Notes under the pieces: generated by a model
Told to the model about the DNA's origin: nothing
Database searches by the model: none
What the model saw: only the letters and a program-made list of their open reading frames with translations
Made by a program: the position numbers and the translations under genes
Shown: positions 4,689 through 42,066 of the stretch, piece after piece
How positions within the stretch are numbered: position 1 is the first letter of the stretch
Layout of the letters: each line of letters opens with the position of its first letter
Assembly (NCBI RefSeq): GCF_009935845.1
Contig: NZ_QWEK01000012.1
Location: 62,001 to 126,000, forward strand
Length of the DNA: 64,000 nucleotides
Direction: 5' to 3'
Source: Pseudoflavonifractor sp. 524-17
GTDB taxonomy: Bacteria; Bacillota; Clostridia; Oscillospirales; Oscillospiraceae

Positions 4689-5705
4689 ATGAAGAAGAAA
4701 GCCGCAATTTTCAGCCTGGTGTTCTGTCTGCTGCTGTCCGCCTGCGGGGGCGGGGACAAGGAACCGGCTGCCACCCCCACCCCTGCGCCCACGGCCACAC
4801 CGGAGCCCACCGGTTCCCAGACGACGGACTACACCAAGTACAACACCTATATCGACCTGCTGGATACCGTGTACCAGGTGGACGATTTCCTCACCGCCTA
4901 TTTTGAGCAGGTAGAGACGCAGGAGGAGTTCGCCCTGACAGAGGGCGGCGACTACAGCCTCATCGGGGACGAGCTGGGCCTGGTGTATACCAAGGACATT
5001 ATGCTCTTTAACAACCTGGACGGGGTGGAGAAGCTCTCCCCCAGCTACCCCGGGGTAGACGAGGCCTATGTGGGCATGATCGACAGCATCAAGATCCTGG
5101 TGGACGTGATGGAGGACATGAGCAGCTATCTGGCCTTCGACAGCTTTGAGGAGGACGGTTATGCCAAGGCCAAGGAGTTTCACGCCTCCATTTGGGACGC
5201 GCTGGACGCCTACGACCAGTGGGCCGGCCAGTTTGCCAATGGAATGGATGAGCTGAACAAGTCCACCCGGGGGGATGACCTGGCCAATCTGGAGCAGTCC
5301 GGCGAGGTGATTATGTTCCACTCCGCCTCCATCATCTACACCGCCCAGGACATTGAGGATTTGTTCTGGGATCAGATCGGCGAGGACGGGGCGGCCACCG
5401 GCCTGGACACCACCGGCCTGGACGAGCTGGTGGCGGAGCTTAAAAACCACCTCACCGCCCTGCGGGCCGCCATGGAGGACCCGGAGGAGCGGGACAAGAT
5501 CTACCTCTTCTGGAAGAGCCAGGAGGCCAACTCCCCCTTTGACTACGTAGATATTTACTCCGACGACCTCAACGGGCTGGAGACCGCCCTGGACGCCCTG
5601 GTGGAGCAGGCCGCCGCCGGGGGGGATCTGCTGGAGCCGCTGTACGACTTTAACGAGGCTGTCAGCGAGCTGATTGACTCCTATAACAACTACCTCGTCG
5701 GCTAG
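4689..5705 (+). CDS. Putative secreted lipoprotein of unknown function
   Basis: A 338-residue protein with a lysine-rich start, a hydrophobic stretch and a lipobox (LLSAC, Cys about residue 19), so it should be lipidated and tethered outside the membrane. A Thr/Pro/Ala linker (about residues 29-45) follows, then an acidic, mostly helical domain rich in Asp, Glu and Leu. I recognise no catalytic motif or family. An AAGGATGAG ribosome binding site precedes the ATG. It starts 27 bases after gyrA and ends 15 bases before rnhA, so it may be read through from the gyrase operon. Confidence 0.75.
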   Translation: MKKKAAIFSLVFCLLLSACGGGDKEPAATPTPAPTATPEPTGSQTTDYTKYNTYIDLLDTVYQVDDFLTAYFEQVETQEEFALTEGGDYSLIGDELGLVYTKDIMLFNNLDGVEKLSPSYPGVDEAYVGMIDSIKILVDVMEDMSSYLAFDSFEEDGYAKAKEFHASIWDALDAYDQWAGQFANGMDELNKSTRGDDLANLEQSGEVIMFHSASIIYTAQDIEDLFWDQIGEDGAATGLDTTGLDELVAELKNHLTALRAAMEDPEERDKIYLFWKSQEANSPFDYVDIYSDDLNGLETALDALVEQAAAGGDLLEPLYDFNEAVSELIDSYNNYLVG

Positions 5706-5720
5706 AGGGCAGGGCAGAGT

Positions 5721-6161
5721 GTGAGGAAGCAAGTCACAATTTATACCGACGGGGCCTGCTCCGGCAATCCCGGCCCCGGCGGCTGGGGGGCTATTCTCCA
5801 GTACGGCGCCCACAAGAGGGAGCTCAGCGGGGGGGAGAGCCACACTACCAACAACCGCATGGAGCTCACGGGCGTCATTTCCGCCCTCCAGGCGCTGAAG
5901 GAGCCCTGTGTGGTGGAGCTGTACTCCGACTCCAAATACGTCATTGACGCCCTGGAGAAAGGCTGGGCCAAGGGATGGCGGGCCCGGGGATGGATCAAAT
6001 CGGACAAAAAGCCCGCCCTCAACCCCGACCTGTGGGAGGAGCTGCTCAAGCTGTGCGAGTACCACACGGTGAACCTCCACTGGGTGAAGGGCCACGGGGA
6101 CAACCCCTATAACAACCGCTGTGACGAGCTGGCCGTGGCAGAGAGCCGGAAATTCAAGTAA
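5721..6161 (+). CDS. rnhA: Ribonuclease HI
   Basis: Endonuclease that cuts RNA in RNA-DNA hybrids (R-loops, primers). The 146-residue protein has the usual RNase HI length and carries the DEDD metal-binding set: Asp in [14 protein letters not shown], Glu in NNRMELTG, Asp in YSDSKYV, and Asp in the C-terminal NRCDELA. The basic segment [16 protein letters not shown] is the substrate-binding handle of the E. coli-type enzyme. The start codon is GTG with a weak AGGGC-type ribosome binding site. A strong terminator lies just after the stop. Confidence 0.95.
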
Positions 6162-6164
6162 AAC

Positions 6165-6205
6165 AAAACCGTCCGCACCTCCTGAGGAGTGTGCGGACGG
6201 TTTTT
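6165..6205. terminator. Bidirectional terminator between rnhA and the acetyltransferase gene
   Basis: Arms AAAACCGTCCGCAC (6165-6178) and GTGCGGACGGTTTT (6191-6204) are perfect complements with a 12-base loop. T residues follow on the plus side and the A-rich left arm gives a T-run on the minus side. It can end rnhA transcripts and those of the convergent minus-strand gene ending at 6239. Confidence 0.85.
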
Positions 6206-6211
6206 AAAACC

Positions 6212-6225
6212 TGTATTCATAGCCG
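6212..6225. repeat. Single copy of the TGTATTCATAGCCG repeat arm
   Basis: It matches the left arm of the inverted repeats at 33-46 and 29731-29744 with two or fewer differences. No partner arm is seen nearby. It lies between the terminator and the 3' end of the acetyltransferase gene. Confidence 0.35.
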
Positions 6226-6238
6226 GTGGCGCGCAGCG

Positions 6239-6808
6239 TTATTCTGCATCCGGGGGATCCAACGCCTTGGCAGGGCGGCAGGGGTTGCCCACCGCCACCA
6301 CGTTGTCGGGAATGTCGCGGACCACCACGCTCCCGGCGCCGATGACCACATTGCTGCCGATGGTCACCCCAGGGAGGACGGTGACATTCCCCCCGAACCA
6401 CACGTGGCTGCCAACGGTAATGGGCTTGGCGTACTCCAGCCCGGACAGACGGGTTTGCATGTCCGTGGGGTGGGTGGCGGTGTAAAAGCCGCAGTTGGGG
6501 GCGATGAGGACGTGATCCCCAAAGGAGATGGGGGCGCAGTCCAGAATCACACAGTTGAAGTTGGCGTAAAAGTGGTCCCCGAAGGTGATGTTCTCCCCAT
6601 AGTCGCACCAGAAATCCGGCTCAATGGTGAAATGGCGGCCGGGCCGGCCCAGGATCTTGTACAAAACCGCCTCCCGGGCGGAGGACTGAAGGGGCGGGAT
6701 CTGGTTGGCCTGATGGCACAGCTCCCGGCAGCGGCCCCGCTTGGCTTTTAGCTCCGGGTCCTCCGGGTTATAGAGCTGGCCGGATATCATTTTACTCCAC
6801 TCTGTCAC
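6239..6808 (-). CDS. maa: Sugar O-acetyltransferase (maltose/galactoside acetyltransferase family)
   Basis: Transfers acetyl from acetyl-CoA to a sugar hydroxyl, probably as detoxification; the true substrate is unknown. The 189-residue length is typical. It has the N-terminal Mac domain (MISGQLYNPEDPEL), a left-handed beta-helix with hexapeptide repeats (ITFGDHFYANFNC, GSHVWFGGNVTVLPGV, GAGSVVVRDI) and the family ending VAVGNPCRPAK. The catalytic His is expected in the TATHPTD segment. The start is GTG at 6808, 7 bases after AAGGAGG; an earlier ATG at 6907 lies upstream of the promoter and is rejected. The gene is divergent to the DHFR-like gene. Confidence 0.85.
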   Translation of the reverse strand: MTEWSKMISGQLYNPEDPELKAKRGRCRELCHQANQIPPLQSSAREAVLYKILGRPGRHFTIEPDFWCDYGENITFGDHFYANFNCVILDCAPISFGDHVLIAPNCGFYTATHPTDMQTRLSGLEYAKPITVGSHVWFGGNVTVLPGVTIGSNVVIGAGSVVVRDIPDNVVAVGNPCRPAKALDPPDAE

Positions 6809-36084: not shown

Positions 36085-36453
36085 ATGGATCGTGTTGAAT
36101 GTAAACACGCCCATGGTGTGGGGTGTGAGGATCCATCAAAGTGCGGGACCTGTGGCTGGAACCCGGCGGAGGCGCGGCGGAGGCTGGAGGCGCAAAAGGC
36201 CGCGCTGATCCAGGAAATGAAACCGCGCATTACATACTTTGACCAGATCACCGCCTCCAGGGAGGCCCTGGCGGAGTTCCTGGCCTCCATTCCCGCATTG
36301 GAAACCCCATGGGATGAAGTTTTCCAGCAGAAATTTTGTACCAGGTGCCGGGCGTCCGGGTGCGACAGGTGCCCACACCAGGCGGAGCGGAACAGCCCGG
36401 CGTGGTTTCTGGCCCAGGAGGTGGCGGACAGTGGAAACGATCCTTTGCGGTGA
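36085..36453 (+). CDS. Cys-rich phage protein (possible zinc-binding)
   Basis: A 122-residue protein with two Cys clusters: CKHAHGVGCEDPSKCGTCGW near the N-terminus and CTRCRASGCDRCPHQ near the C-terminus, separated by a helical region. This pattern suggests two zinc sites; function unknown. AGGAGGA lies before ATG 36085. It overlaps the downstream methylase start by 23 bases. Confidence 0.65.
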   Translation: MDRVECKHAHGVGCEDPSKCGTCGWNPAEARRRLEAQKAALIQEMKPRITYFDQITASREALAEFLASIPALETPWDEVFQQKFCTRCRASGCDRCPHQAERNSPAWFLAQEVADSGNDPLR

Positions 36454-37378
36454 CGCCCTGGAGCAACTGCGGACACTGGAGGCGGAAAGCGTCCACACCT
36501 GCGTGACCTCCCCGCCCTATTACAATCTGCGGGACTACGGGGCAGCCGGGCGGATCGGCATGGAGGAAACGCCGGAGGAGTACATAACCAAGCTGGTGGG
36601 CGTGTTCCGGGAGGTCCGGCGGGTTTTGCGCCAGGACGGGACGCTGTGGGTGAACATCGGGGACAGCTACGCCACCAGGTCCGGGCCGCAGCCACCGGCA
36701 AACACCAGGAACGCACACGGGCACACCAGGAAAGAGCCGCCGGGCGGCTACAAGTGCAAGGACCTGATGGGGATCCCGTGGCTTTTGGCCTTTGCCCTGC
36801 GGGCTGATGGGTGGTATTTGCGGCAGGATATTATATGGAGCAAAACCAACTGTATGCCGGAAAGCGTCCGGGACCGTTGCACAAAGGCCCACGAATATAT
36901 TTTCCTGCTGTCAAAATCGGCCCATTACTATTTTGACGCGGCGGCAATCCGGGAGCCGTGCGGGGTCAAGGGGAACGCCAGGACATTCCGAGGCGGTGGA
37001 GCCTATACGGGCGGGCGGTCATTCCAGAACAGCGCCCGCGTGGAGCGGGAGAGCCACGGGAACAGCGCAAACAACACCGGGGGCAGGAACAAGCGGAGCG
37101 TATGGAGCATAGCAACAGGGCAATTTAAGGCCGCCCACTATGCCACATTCCCGGAGCGCCTGGTGGAACCGTGCATATTGGCCGGGTGCCCGGAGGGCGG
37201 GACGGTCCTGGACCCGTTTGCCGGGAGCGGAACCACCGGAGTGGTGGCCAAGCGTCTGCGGCGCCATTTCGTGGGTGTGGAGATCAACCCGGAATATTGG
37301 CAAATGGCCACGGACCGGATCGCGGCCACAATGCAGGAATTTCAACAGCTGGAGATCACAGAAAGGGCAACAAAATGA
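36431..37378 (+). CDS. Class-beta DNA methyltransferase (adenine-N6 or cytosine-N4)
   Basis: A 315-residue enzyme with motif IV TSPPYYNLRDYG (SPPY at residues 27-30) before motif I DPFAGSGTTGVVA (about residue 260), the beta-class order. SPPY favours N4-cytosine but also occurs in N6-adenine enzymes. The middle (residues 100-240) would be the target recognition part. GTG 36431 follows AGGAGGTG by 8 bases; an upstream ATG in the same frame at 36239 has no support. No endonuclease partner is visible. Confidence 0.88.
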   Translation: METILCGDALEQLRTLEAESVHTCVTSPPYYNLRDYGAAGRIGMEETPEEYITKLVGVFREVRRVLRQDGTLWVNIGDSYATRSGPQPPANTRNAHGHTRKEPPGGYKCKDLMGIPWLLAFALRADGWYLRQDIIWSKTNCMPESVRDRCTKAHEYIFLLSKSAHYYFDAAAIREPCGVKGNARTFRGGGAYTGGRSFQNSARVERESHGNSANNTGGRNKRSVWSIATGQFKAAHYATFPERLVEPCILAGCPEGGTVLDPFAGSGTTGVVAKRLRRHFVGVEINPEYWQMATDRIAATMQEFQQLEITERATK

Positions 37379-37888: not shown

Positions 37889-37989
37889 CAACACGGCGCA
37901 GGTGGTGAGGTGAACGGCGCAAACCGTCCGACTGCCTACATTATACCACACGCCGGGCGGTTTGCAAGCCGGAAAAAGGAGTGCAGCCT

Positions 37990-38292
37990 GTGAAAATCCA
38001 CATAGCCGGAAAGATCACCGGCGATAAAAAATACAGGGCCAAGTTTCGGGAGGCGGCCAAAGCCCTGGAGGCACTGGGCCATGTAGTCCTGAACCCGGCC
38101 ATTTTACCGGCGGGCCTGGGGGAACGGGACTATATGCGGATCACGCTGGCCATGCTGGAGGCGGCGGACCTGGCCGTGTTCCTGCCGGACTACCGGGAGA
38201 GCGCGGGCGCCATGATTGAATGGGCGTGGTGCAAGCGGACCGGGAAAGACTGCGCCCTGTATCTGGACATGAAAGGGGGCGGTGCGGGGTGA
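37990..38292 (+). CDS. DUF4406 (nucleoside 2-deoxyribosyltransferase-like) protein
   Basis: A 100-residue protein matching the DUF4406 pattern: IHIAGKITGDKKYRAKF at the N-terminus, GHVVLNPAILPAGL, DYMRITLAMLEAADLAVFLPDY and GAMIEWAWCKRTGKDC. The fold is related to nucleoside 2-deoxyribosyltransferases, so nucleotide binding is plausible, but activity of this family is not established. GTG 37990 is chosen as start because AAAGGAG lies 8 bases upstream (the GTG at 37981 sits on it). It overlaps the methylase gene by 4 bases. Confidence 0.75.
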   Translation: MKIHIAGKITGDKKYRAKFREAAKALEALGHVVLNPAILPAGLGERDYMRITLAMLEAADLAVFLPDYRESAGAMIEWAWCKRTGKDCALYLDMKGGGAG

Positions 38293-40328
38293 AACTGCTG
38301 ATCGGCGGGTCCCCCTGTACCCACTGGAGCATAGCGCAAACAAAAAACCGGGAAACCGAGCCGGAGGGGCTGGGGTGGGAACTGTTCAAAAACTACCTGA
38401 TCGCCCTGGAGAAATTCAAGCCGGACTTTTTCCTGTATGAGAACAACAAAAGCATGGCACCGGCCATCCGGGCGCAGATCACGCGGGAGTTAGGCGTGGA
38501 GCCGATCCTGATCAATTCCGCCCTGGTGAGTGCGCAAAACCGCCAGCGCCTATATTGGACCAATATCCCCGGCGTGGAGCAGCCGGAGGACCTGGGGATC
38601 CTGTTACGGGACATTCTGGAAAGCGGCCTGCCGCTGAAAGAAAAAGGGTACACGCTGAAAGCCAACTATGCCAACGCCGGGGCAGTCAATGGCGTGTGCG
38701 GCCAGCATTTCCCCGCGCCTATGGCGGCGGAGCCGGTGAATATGACGGCAGACGGAAAAGCCCGTTGTCTGCGGGCTACTTATTACAAGGACGGGATCCG
38801 AAACCTGGTGGGAAATACTGTGGACTGTAAAACCTGCGTGGCGGAGCCGGTGAGGATAGGGACCATAGAGAGCGACGCCAAAAATGCGGACTTTGACAGT
38901 CAGCAATACCGGGTATATTCGCCGGACGGTAAAAGCGTGACCATGTGCGGAAAGGGCGGTGGCGTGGGGGCAAAGACTGGGCTTTATGCCACGCCGGTGC
39001 GGGTGGGCGATATGCCAAACGCAGAGGGGGAAATAAAAGGCGGACAGGCCCATAGGGTATATGACGCAGACGGGAAAGCCGTGACGTTGACAGCCAGGCC
39101 AAACGGCGGCGGTGTGGACGGCCCGCTGTATGCGGTGCGGACACCTATTGAATACAACCCGCTCCAGTCCTGTGACGTAGTGGTGACAGATCAAAATATC
39201 CGGTGTACCTACAAAGACGGATCGGGAACGGCCCAGGGCTACACGGTATATTTTGACGACGTGAAAGGGCCGTCTGTAATTGCGGGACACGCCCATAAAA
39301 TGAAGATCATAGAACCGGAGACCGGGAAAGAATGGCCGGTCTATGAAGTCCGGGACGGCCAGATCACAATAAAAGAAAAACAATACCCCATAAAACTGGC
39401 GGACGGGTTTTATATTATCCGAAAACTGACCGTGACAGAGTGCAAGCGTCTCCAGACGGTGCCGGAGGACTACATATTCCCCGTGTCTGATACCCAGGCT
39501 TATAAAATGCTGGGCAACGGCTGGACGGTGGACGTGATCGCCCACATTCTCCACTATGCGCCGGGGATCACAACCGAGCCGCTGGAAGTGCTGTCCATGT
39601 ATGACGGTATGAGCTGCGGGCACCTGGCGCTGGATAAGCTGGGGGCGCATATCGCCCACTACTATGCCGCCGAGATCGACAAGTACGCCGTACAGACCAC
39701 ACAGCACAATTTCCCGGACACCATCCAGCTGGGGGACGCTTTTCAAGTGCGGGATGATGGGTGGAGCCTGCCGGGGCTGACTGTGGAGGAAAGCGTGGCC
39801 ACACCGGCGGCGGAGGCCATGGAAAAACCGGGACAGGCGGAGCCGGAGGAACCGCAAGCGGCGGAGAAACGCAAGGCCGCGCCGCTGGAAATCGTCCCCA
39901 TGACGCTGCGGGAGGCCAACGCCTATGTGGAACAGAACCACCGGCACCATGGCCCGGTGGCGGGCCATAAGTATTCCATAGGACTATCAGACGGGGAGAA
40001 AATCGTGGGCGTGGCCATCGTGGGCCGCCCAGTGTCCAGGCACCTGGATGATGGGTGGACCCTGGAGGTAAACCGCCTTTGTACCGACGGGACAAAAAAC
40101 GCCTGTTCCATGCTTTACGCGGCGGCATGGAGAGCGGCCAGGGCTATGGGATATAAACGCCTTGTAACCTACATACTGGAGAGCGAAAACGGGGCAAGCC
40201 TGCGGGCAGCCGGGTGGAAATGTGTGGGACAAGCTGGCGGCCTGCGCTGGACTGGAGAGCGCCGCCCGGAGGTGGACCTGTACCCCGCACAAATGAAGAT
40301 CCGTTTTGAGCAGGTGGTGAAAGTATGA
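38289..40328 (+). CDS. Circularly permuted cytosine-5 DNA methyltransferase fused to a GNAT-like domain
   Basis: A 679-residue fusion. It begins at motif IV (GGSPC, catalytic Cys10), then motif VI (YENNKS, Glu51) and VIII (QNRQRLYW, 83-90), a target-recognition-like middle with repeats of the RVYxxDGKxVTL type (about 180-300), motif IX/X (CKRLQTVPEDY ... YKMLGNGWTVDVIAH, about 385-415), and only then motif I (SMYDGMSCGHLALDKLGA, about 435) with motifs II/III (EIDKYA, LGDAF). Residues 535-679 look like an acetyltransferase-like (XF1762/GNAT) domain. Ordinary enzymes run I to X. GTG 38289 follows GGTGCGGG; the PP-loop gene overlaps by 4 bases. Confidence 0.85.
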   Translation: MKLLIGGSPCTHWSIAQTKNRETEPEGLGWELFKNYLIALEKFKPDFFLYENNKSMAPAIRAQITRELGVEPILINSALVSAQNRQRLYWTNIPGVEQPEDLGILLRDILESGLPLKEKGYTLKANYANAGAVNGVCGQHFPAPMAAEPVNMTADGKARCLRATYYKDGIRNLVGNTVDCKTCVAEPVRIGTIESDAKNADFDSQQYRVYSPDGKSVTMCGKGGGVGAKTGLYATPVRVGDMPNAEGEIKGGQAHRVYDADGKAVTLTARPNGGGVDGPLYAVRTPIEYNPLQSCDVVVTDQNIRCTYKDGSGTAQGYTVYFDDVKGPSVIAGHAHKMKIIEPETGKEWPVYEVRDGQITIKEKQYPIKLADGFYIIRKLTVTECKRLQTVPEDYIFPVSDTQAYKMLGNGWTVDVIAHILHYAPGITTEPLEVLSMYDGMSCGHLALDKLGAHIAHYYAAEIDKYAVQTTQHNFPDTIQLGDAFQVRDDGWSLPGLTVEESVATPAAEAMEKPGQAEPEEPQAAEKRKAAPLEIVPMTLREANAYVEQNHRHHGPVAGHKYSIGLSDGEKIVGVAIVGRPVSRHLDDGWTLEVNRLCTDGTKNACSMLYAAAWRAARAMGYKRLVTYILESENGASLRAAGWKCVGQAGGLRWTGERRPEVDLYPAQMKIRFEQVVKV

Positions 40329-41134
40329 GCAGATATACAATCGCCAGCGTTTCGTGCGGGAAGGACAGCATAGTGATCCCCTATGAGTGCATACGGCGAA
40401 ACCTGCGGCTGGATGAAGTGATCATGTATGACACCGGCATGGAGTTCCAAGCCATATATAACGAATGGGCGGCATTGGTCAAATTACTGGACAAAAACGG
40501 GATCAAACACACCGTATTGCACCCGGAATATAGTTTCTGCTGGCAAATGTTTGAACGCCCCGTGAACGTGGGGAAAGAAAACGAACACCTGGGATATAGC
40601 TGGTGCGGCGGGACGTGCCGCTGGGGTACGGCTGACAAGCGGACAATTTTGGGAAAATATGCGGAGGATCGGGACGCCATAGTGTTGGTGGGGATCGCCG
40701 CAGACGAACCAGAACGGCAGGAAAAGGAGTTCAAGCCATACAAGCGTTTTCCGCTGATTGAGTGGAAAATGACAGAGGCGGATTGCCTGGCCTATTCATA
40801 TCAGCAGGGGCATGAATGGCGGGAGCATGGAGCCAACACGCCAAGCGGAACGGTCCGCTTGTATGAAATATTGGATCGTGTTTCCTGCTGGTGCTGTACC
40901 AACAAAAACCTGGGAGAATTGCGGAACATATACCGTTATCTGCCGGAATACTGGGATCGCCTGAAAGAATTACAGCGGAAAACTTGCCGCCCCATGAAGG
41001 GGGACGGGAAAAGCGTCTTTGACCTGGAAACCCGTTTCAAGCTGGAGGACGCCAGGGTGGCGGCGGGATTGAGCATAAGAAACAAGGACTTTTTCAGGGA
41101 ACTGTCCACTGTGTTGGGGGTGGCGCAGCTGTGA
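40325..41134 (+). CDS. PP-loop protein, phosphoadenosine phosphosulfate reductase-like
   Basis: A 269-residue adenine nucleotide alpha hydrolase. PP-loop SVSCGKDS at residues 8-15 (Cys replaces the usual first Gly), YDTGMEFQAIY, and Cys clusters SWCGGTCRWG and SCWCCTNKN that could hold a metal or Fe-S cluster. A sulfate-assimilation role is unlikely in a phage; base or tRNA modification is more plausible. ATG overlaps the methylase stop (ATGA), and the radical SAM gene overlaps its own stop (GTGA). Confidence 0.8.
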   Translation: MSRYTIASVSCGKDSIVIPYECIRRNLRLDEVIMYDTGMEFQAIYNEWAALVKLLDKNGIKHTVLHPEYSFCWQMFERPVNVGKENEHLGYSWCGGTCRWGTADKRTILGKYAEDRDAIVLVGIAADEPERQEKEFKPYKRFPLIEWKMTEADCLAYSYQQGHEWREHGANTPSGTVRLYEILDRVSCWCCTNKNLGELRNIYRYLPEYWDRLKELQRKTCRPMKGDGKSVFDLETRFKLEDARVAAGLSIRNKDFFRELSTVLGVAQL

Positions 41135-42066
41135 AAATTGGTCTGATCGACGTGGACGGCCACAACTACCCAAACCTGGCGCTTATGAAAATATCCGCAT
41201 GGCATAAGGCCAGAGGTGACACGGTGGAATGGTGGTGGTCCGATTTATTCCACTATGACGTGGTGTATATGTCCAAGGTTTTCAGCGATACATACACGCC
41301 GGACCACCCGGAACCGCTGAACGCTGGCCAGGTGATCAAGGGCGGCACGGGGTACGCCATCACCCTGGAGGGTGACCGGGAAGTTTACCACCCGGAGCGG
41401 GACAAGCCCCTGCCACTGGAAATAGAGCATATATACCCGGACTATTCCCTGTACCCGGAATTGACAGAAAAAACGGCCTACGGCTTTTTAACACGGGGCT
41501 GTCCCCGTGGGTGCCATTTCTGTCATGTGGGCGGGAAAGAGGGCCGCGCCTCCATAAAAGTGGCCGATCTTTCAGAGTTCTGGAGAGGTCAAAGAAATAT
41601 AACCATAATGGATCCCAATATTCTGGCCTGCCCGGAGCGGTGGGACCTGCTGGAGCAGTTGGCGGCCTCCAGGGCCTATGTGGATTTTAACCAGGGGCTG
41701 GACATTCGCCTGGCGGACAAAGACGTGGCGGACCTGCTGGGGAAAATGCGGATCGAGCGGCTACATTTTGCCTGGGACAACCCGGCGGAGGACCTACGGC
41801 CACAATTTGAAAGGTTTTCCCACTGGTACAGGCGGAAAGACCCGACCAAAAAGGGCGTGTATGTTCTAACCAATTTCAACAGCACACTGGAGGAGGACCT
41901 GGCCCGCGTCTATGCCCTGCGTGACCTGGGATATTCCCCCTATGTAATGATCTACAACAAGGACCGAGCGCCCCAGGAAGTCCGATACCTGCAAAGGTGG
42001 TGCAACAATCGGCTGATCTTCAAAGCGCAGCCGGATTTTAGCAAGTACGATCCAAAACGAGGATAA
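41131..42066 (+). CDS. Radical SAM protein with B12-binding-like N-terminus
   Basis: A 311-residue protein with the iron-sulfur motif RGCPRGCHFC (CX3CX2C, about residues 122-131), a start like the B12-binding fold (LIDVDGHNYPNLALMKISAWH), and later radical SAM strands (FNQGLDIRL, YVLTNFNS). Reaction unknown; close relatives occur in phages without assigned function. The GTG start overlaps the PP-loop gene stop, so the two and the methylase form one translationally coupled trio. Confidence 0.82.
   Translation: MKIGLIDVDGHNYPNLALMKISAWHKARGDTVEWWWSDLFHYDVVYMSKVFSDTYTPDHPEPLNAGQVIKGGTGYAITLEGDREVYHPERDKPLPLEIEHIYPDYSLYPELTEKTAYGFLTRGCPRGCHFCHVGGKEGRASIKVADLSEFWRGQRNITIMDPNILACPERWDLLEQLAASRAYVDFNQGLDIRLADKDVADLLGKMRIERLHFAWDNPAEDLRPQFERFSHWYRRKDPTKKGVYVLTNFNSTLEEDLARVYALRDLGYSPYVMIYNKDRAPQEVRYLQRWCNNRLIFKAQPDFSKYDPKRG

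Follow-up and report, generated by a model that had tools for sequence, protein, structure and literature searches.

A predicted circularly permuted C5-cytosine methylase fused to a Mom-like GNAT-fold domain in a phage-associated gene

The window analysed here, a stretch of 64,000 nucleotides, contains a fused gene (38289-40328, on the forward strand like all window features given below) whose 679 amino acid product is probably an enzyme that protects phage DNA and has two catalytic heads, one leaving 5-methylcytosine (m5C) and the other a Mom-type mark on adenine. Its methylase half probably combines ordinary chemistry with an unusual topology, in a rare fusion to a second, probably DNA-modifying head, and both heads together would hide phage DNA from the restriction enzymes of the host. 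A broader reading, which we hold to be evenly poised, is that C5 methylases cut between motifs III and IV form a natural, large class of single origin in phages and prophages of gut Clostridia, and that the C-terminus freed by this cut docks a second DNA-modifying enzyme, marking C and A.

Motif order and completeness of the methylase half

The fused reading frame is open from a GTG at 38289, which overlaps the stop of a DUF4406 (nucleoside deoxyribosyltransferase-like) gene at 37981-38292 (ORF listing, Pfam and PHROG searches), to a stop at 40326-40328, and the ORF listing also holds an upstream alternative start, an ATG at 38220. As the original prediction had read them, the motifs of a C5-cytosine methylase run in the order IV-VI-VIII-TRD-IX-X-I-II-III within this one frame, followed by a linker and a GNAT-fold domain. 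Residues 1-110 (38289-38618) hold motifs IV (IGGSPC, with Cys10), VI (YENN) and VIII (QNRQRLYW), and are followed by the variable or target-recognition region (TRD) up to about residue 345 (residues 111-345, 38619-39323), which has mostly low pLDDT and repeated small modules (RVYSPDGKSVT, RVYDADGKAVT). Motifs IX (RKLTVTECKRLQTVPEDY) and X (AYKMLGNGWTVDV) lie in residues 346-425 (39324-39563), and the SAM-binding half of the fold in residues 430-495 (39576-39773), with motifs I (LSMYDGMSCG, from 435), II (YAAEIDKYA) and III (LGD, 481-483). A variable linker rich in Pro, Glu and Ala (residues 496-533, 39774-39887), fast-changing and of low pLDDT, leads to the last domain (residues 534-679, 39888-40325). 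The cut of the chain is between motifs III and IV, placing the new ends just before the motif IV strand, and a short stretch links motifs X and I, the former ends of the chain.

Motifs I, IV (PC), VI (EN), VIII (QxRxR), IX and X of C5-cytosine DNA methylases are all there, and PF00145 matches the protein in two stretches (1.2e-26, 94 bits against a cut-off of 22), the best of them residues 376-421 on profile positions 274-319, while TIGR00675 (dcm) stays under its cut-off (82.6 of 100.65 bits). Using a family profile (A1) and a profile across the X-I junction (A6), A1 positions 4-189 (the IV-TRD part) align to HhaI 74-268 and A6 to HhaI 240-316 (IX-X), and the downstream part of A6 aligns, weakly, to HhaI 11-67 (I-III) but matches the start of the DNMT3A catalytic domain well. 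Between them the two profiles account for almost all of M.HhaI 11-316, so that the fold is whole and the order alone differs. The best PDB match of the family profile is DNMT3A (4.8e-26), and DRM2 is matched in one unbroken stretch across the X-I junction (A6 37-139 on DRM2 178-282). The best match of phrog_17284, listed as unknown, is to residues 349-452, again spanning this junction, and a function is suggested for it here. That the methylase half is a complete, circularly permuted C5-cytosine methylase is thus well supported by the sequence comparisons.

The AlphaFold2 (AF2) model of the full-length protein (mean pLDDT 65, pTM 0.60) is confident in each half of the methylase core: ten-residue blocks reach pLDDT 87-98 over residues 1-110 (except 72 at 11-20), 84-95 over 351-420 and 92-98 over 421-490, with 80 at 491-500. 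Confidence is mostly poor in the TRD and low (30-62) in the linker and in the GNAT part, the latter being covered by few alignment rows. Foldseek of this model matched HhaI with a poor rmsd of 10.8, or DNMT3A over about 123 columns, with no DRM among the best 50 matches listed, but as its alignment runs in chain order this is no test of the permutation.

An upstream half-gene as the source of motif I was ruled out, since the I-III block lies downstream in the same chain and the stops of relatives stand right before motif IV. Many relatives have an in-frame stop within about 23 codons 5' of motif IV (about one codon in loci L013 and L014), and so have no in-frame upstream motif I-III block there.

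This first head is predicted to bind SAM, flip the cytosine, attack it via Cys10 and leave 5-methylcytosine, with the modular TRD region probably picking the sites. Asn410 lies at the position of HhaI Asn304 and is Asn in 87 of the 89 permuted relatives, whereas CmoX has Arg there (PMC12783734); this residue argues for the use of SAM rather than carboxy-SAM, and carboxy-SAM use as in CmoX is unlikely. The other two of the 89 (L010 and L014) have motif X as LGGGWT, not LGNGWT, with Gly aligned to HhaI Asn304. A further permuted methylase (L006:2858-5497) carries an in-frame intein (Intein_splicing 1.4e-9, Hint_2 3.7e-8; junctions near 2963 and 4000), which, judged by sequence, sits directly at the catalytic Cys of motif IV.

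The original prediction had likened this order to that of M.BssHII, and while the permutation itself stands, the likeness to M.BssHII does not. In a 2018 survey (PMC5944983), M.BssHII, M.Alw26I and M.Esp3I are natural permuted C5 methylases of type H, all 27 natural permuted enzymes that its REBASE search found are cut in the variable region, and of ten active permutation types made one only is found in nature. Type H shares with the fused protein a complete, circularly permuted C5 motif set, but has its new N-terminus in the variable region between motif VIII and the TRD and not just before motif IV, so that a BssHII-like permutation was ruled out. The same source cites engineered, active permutants of M.HaeIII whose new N-terminus falls within III or on either side of it, between II and III or between III and IV (more or less types B or C), and considers that SAM binding might suffer from the type B cut, which lies between II and III (PMC5944983). 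Plant DRM enzymes have the order VI-X then I-IV (PMC3934875); in DRM2 and tobacco DRM motif X runs straight into motif I, as in the fused protein, but motif IV is on the C-terminal side instead of at the N-terminus, and DRM enzymes come with UBA domains. Canonical phage C5 methylases (L125, L175, L286) and DNMT3A share the motifs of the fused protein but run from I to X. Among the literature matches listed, with partial coverage of journals, no report of a natural III/IV-cut C5 methylase or of a methylase-Mom fusion was recognised from titles and the starts of abstracts.

The permuted clade in phages and prophages

Compared loci (labelled L###) were obtained by scanning IMG/VR, GTDB genomes and phage records, with at most 80 loci taken per scan and with regions opened for 10 of the 247 phage records that had a match. 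Among the loci listed, 185 ORFs carry the three segments when repeat fetches are counted, 139 of them in the permuted and 46 in the canonical order; removal of redundancy leaves 126 methylases (window included), 89 permuted and 37 canonical. These counts leave out rows with a IV-VIII segment under 100 amino acids and ORFs split in two, and they are not frequencies, because sampling was mainly with permuted queries and took at most 80 loci per scan. An order common to 89 methylases is no product of chance. Motifs were well conserved among the 89: GG[SF]PC in 87, EN in 89, QxRxR in 88, motif I in 86 and the Asn of motif X in 87.

The permuted methylases form one clade in a tree of re-ordered segments (SH-aLRT 99, with one change of order), and the same split from the canonical enzymes was obtained with segments IV-X alone and I-III alone (SH-aLRT 91 each). 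In the full tree the phage enzymes L175, which is cut by its contig end, and L286 are the canonical rows closest to the clade, whereas in the 64-column I-III tree L286 is nearer to other canonical rows. Most hosts named for permuted rows belong to the Oscillospiraceae or other Clostridia, and the others are an Erysipelotrichaceae, an Atopobiaceae and a Bacteroidota MAG. Among the ten opened phage records the permuted order is in Phage nd4 and one faecal phage record, the rest comprising 6 canonical methylases, 1 split in two ORFs and 1 XF1762 alone. Of 245 genomes from the order to which the window belongs, 8 gave a match to the junction profile, nearly whole in one stretch in 5 and in parts only in 3. 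A topology adjacent to the type B cut thus occurs and persists in nature in this III/IV-cut clade of 89 non-redundant, mostly phage or prophage enzymes, a natural set on which SAM affinity could be measured and a parallel among prokaryotes to plant DRM.

Tandem neighbours were seen as a canonical beside a permuted methylase (L019), two permuted (L148) and two canonical (L199) genes. Such tandem genes fit, without proving it, the duplication-and-truncation model of methylase permutation described in PMC5944983. In L019 (4001-5883) the canonical and permuted genes stand head to tail, the arrangement expected from this model, but the canonical one sits on a very long branch of the tree. Seven permuted methylases lie over two ORFs (L054, L075, L076, L116, L251, L268, L275), with the break between the IV-VIII part and the IX-X plus I-III part, and are either split genes or frameshifts.

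The TRD region is 31-274 amino acids long in permuted enzymes (median 144) compared with 27-225 (median 80) in canonical ones, and two RVYSxDGK-type modules were found, by a simple text pattern, in 14 of 89 permuted and 0 of 37 canonical enzymes. Multispecific phage methylases have several target-recognition units, and by analogy with these we read the repeated modules as putative units of the same kind. The TRD and linker are the fastest-changing parts in most pairs compared. For the window protein against L003, dN/dS values were 0.145/0.77 and 0.10/0.56 in the methylase core, and dN was 0.015 with dS of 0.61 in the XF1762 part, which indicates strong purifying selection; the pair with L004 gave a similar pattern. 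The pairs with L002 (linker and XF1762 part) and L126 (residues 1-110) are identical in those parts and so uninformative there.

The XF1762 domain and the recurrence of the fusion

A domain search of residues 535-679 bore out the last domain as an acetyltransferase-like unit: residues 535-674 match the NCBIfam family XF1762 (NF045478) with 216 bits against a curated cut-off of 50 (1.6e-64), and phrog_1384 ("Mom-like DNA modification protein") matches it with 146 bits (2.8e-42). Modelled alone with AF2 it has a GNAT fold (mean pLDDT 88), and Foldseek of this separate model against the PDB (350,542 chains) placed phage Mu Mom (8bv8) at ranks 1 and 3 (E 1.6e-8 and 7.5e-7), rank 1 being chain B with a TM of 0.77 by query, so that the fold is that of Mom, with ordinary GNATs among and after Mu Mom in the list. 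Pfam Mom (PF25680) remained under its gathering score (23.4 of 27.1 bits), and Mu Mom is a separate gene whereas this domain is fused.

Twenty columns are invariant in an alignment of XF1762 (A3, 50 rows), including His18, Arg63, Ser74 and Glu100, which are residues 551, 596, 607 and 633 of the fused protein. Hhalign with the single Mu Mom sequence (L308) set Mom His58, Arg111 and Ser124 on His18, Arg63 and Ser74 in a weak alignment (1.5% probability, E 0.033), and in this low-probability alignment the invariant Ser607 is paired with Mom Ser124, of which the title of the 8bv8 record states that the S124A form is inactive. The XF1762 profile against PDB sequences gave three matches only (E 0.029 to 0.8), taken as noise, and a mixed alignment of methylase and XF1762 rows (A2) was discarded as badly aligned. 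XF1762 was found in 8 of 245 genomes of the window's order (E up to 1e-10) compared with 0 of 14 control genomes, and our literature search found 0 publications naming it. At two loci (L096:2898-3929, L114:2901-3932) XF1762 has an N-terminal extension of about 200 amino acids with no Pfam match.

The fusion occurs in 6 distinct proteins, those of the window and of five other contigs (L001-L004, L126), all open, and their XF1762 domains form one clade (97; 5 distinct rows, the window being identical to L002 there). Together with the single clade of the permuted order, this rules out an assembly error and upholds the original prediction of one fused gene, which is present as a single copy in the source assembly. 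XF1762 and methylase are separate adjoining genes in L013, L072 and L074, and XF1762 lies upstream in L256, which makes it likely that the fusion arose by the joining of neighbouring genes.

The fused form is rare, and the permuted methylase without a GNAT domain is the common form among the loci listed. The stretch after motif III was under 30 amino acids in 89 of 109 distinct permuted ORFs, 30-99 in 8 and at least 100 in 12, and the 12 include L030, a second copy of the window that is cut. Among the ORFs fetched, 71 distinct ORFs had XF1762 outside a permuted methylase compared with 7 fused (one being the cut copy). None of the 247 matching phage-collection records covered 80% of the fused protein in one place, so that the fusion is in no named phage of that collection. 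One permuted methylase (L143) carries a C-terminal D12 N6-adenine methylase (5456-6343; 3.2e-21) where the window has the GNAT domain, and the freed C-terminus may be why partner domains gather there.

Target of the GNAT half and the gene neighbourhood

The second head, on its flexible linker, would be of the Mom type and most likely adds a small group to the N6 of DNA adenine, a chemistry and target that we infer from the fold, the active-site alignment and the exchange with an N6-adenine methylase in L143; the XF1762 family is thereby linked to DNA modification. The original prediction had the extra domain decorate a modified base or a partner protein, and its GNAT fold was found, but direct modification of adenine is likelier than either target because the domain is XF1762 and its closest fold Mom. 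Acetylation of a host or phage partner protein, with the methylase half as described above and the fusion merely placing the GNAT on DNA, is improbable but retains some weight: ordinary GNATs with small-molecule or protein substrates come after Mom among the Foldseek matches, phage GNATs modifying RNA polymerase are described in PMC7824862, and a close XF-like fold lies inside a protein named ART-PolyVal-like. Against this the best match is Mom itself, whose His, Arg and Ser fall on residues that are invariant in XF1762, DNA-modification genes often adjoin, and the partner at the GNAT position in L143 acts on N6 of adenine.

Decoration by the GNAT half of the cytosine (or a derivative) marked by the methylase half is much less probable, although the two halves are physically fused and CmoX, a phage C5-methylase homologue, installs carboxymethylcytosine, a handle which is then extended (PMC12783734). 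Asn410, where CmoX has Arg, leads us to expect a plain methyl group without such a handle, and most XF1762 ORFs fetched stand outside a permuted methylase. The least probable reading of all is that two unrelated genes have been joined by decay or artefact and do not function as a unit. Some permuted relatives do lie over two ORFs (L054, L075, L076, L116) and the two genes are separate in L013, L072 and L074, but the fusion is open on all five other contigs, its XF1762 parts are one clade, and dN is below dS in cores and XF1762 parts wherever the compared pairs differ. We therefore favour a Mom-type adenine mark beside m5C.

A DNA methylase lies near 22 of 60 non-redundant XF1762 loci, a PAPS-reductase-like gene near 12 and a radical-SAM gene near 4 in the stretch at hand; two of the 22, L003 and L126, are fused proteins whose own methylase is part of the reason for their inclusion, though each also has an N6/N4 methylase gene nearby, and the other 38 of 60 had no methylase in the sequence examined, whose flanks are often short. 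Within 3 kb of the 89 permuted methylases there were PAPS-like genes in 18, N6/N4 methylases in 10, radical-SAM in 9, D12 in 6 and a separate XF1762 in 4, counted without a random background and with 2.5 kb available on both sides in 49 of the 89. Around the 37 canonical enzymes these numbers were 8, 6, 1, 2 and 0 respectively, and PAPS-like neighbours (8 of 37 compared with 18 of 89) are therefore not special to the permuted form.

In the window itself an N6/N4-type DNA methylase gene (36239-37378, start coordinate provisional; PF01555, 8.6e-54) lies upstream of the fused gene. PHROGs matches were obtained for 6 of 10 other window proteins scanned (Holliday junction resolvase, terminase, portal, head/protease, tail sheath and tape-measure), all lying to the right of the fused gene, which therefore stands beside packaging and tail genes from a phage with a contractile tail; the four proteins to its left had no PHROGs match at 1e-5. 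Directly downstream, a PAPS-reductase-like gene (40325-41134; phrog_424, 8.9e-27, with no family matched in the Pfam search) overlaps the fused gene by 4 bases and is in turn overlapped by 4 bases by a radical-SAM gene (41131-42066; phrog_9298, 1.9e-99), and these two genes (40325-42066) are possibly part of a modification pathway.
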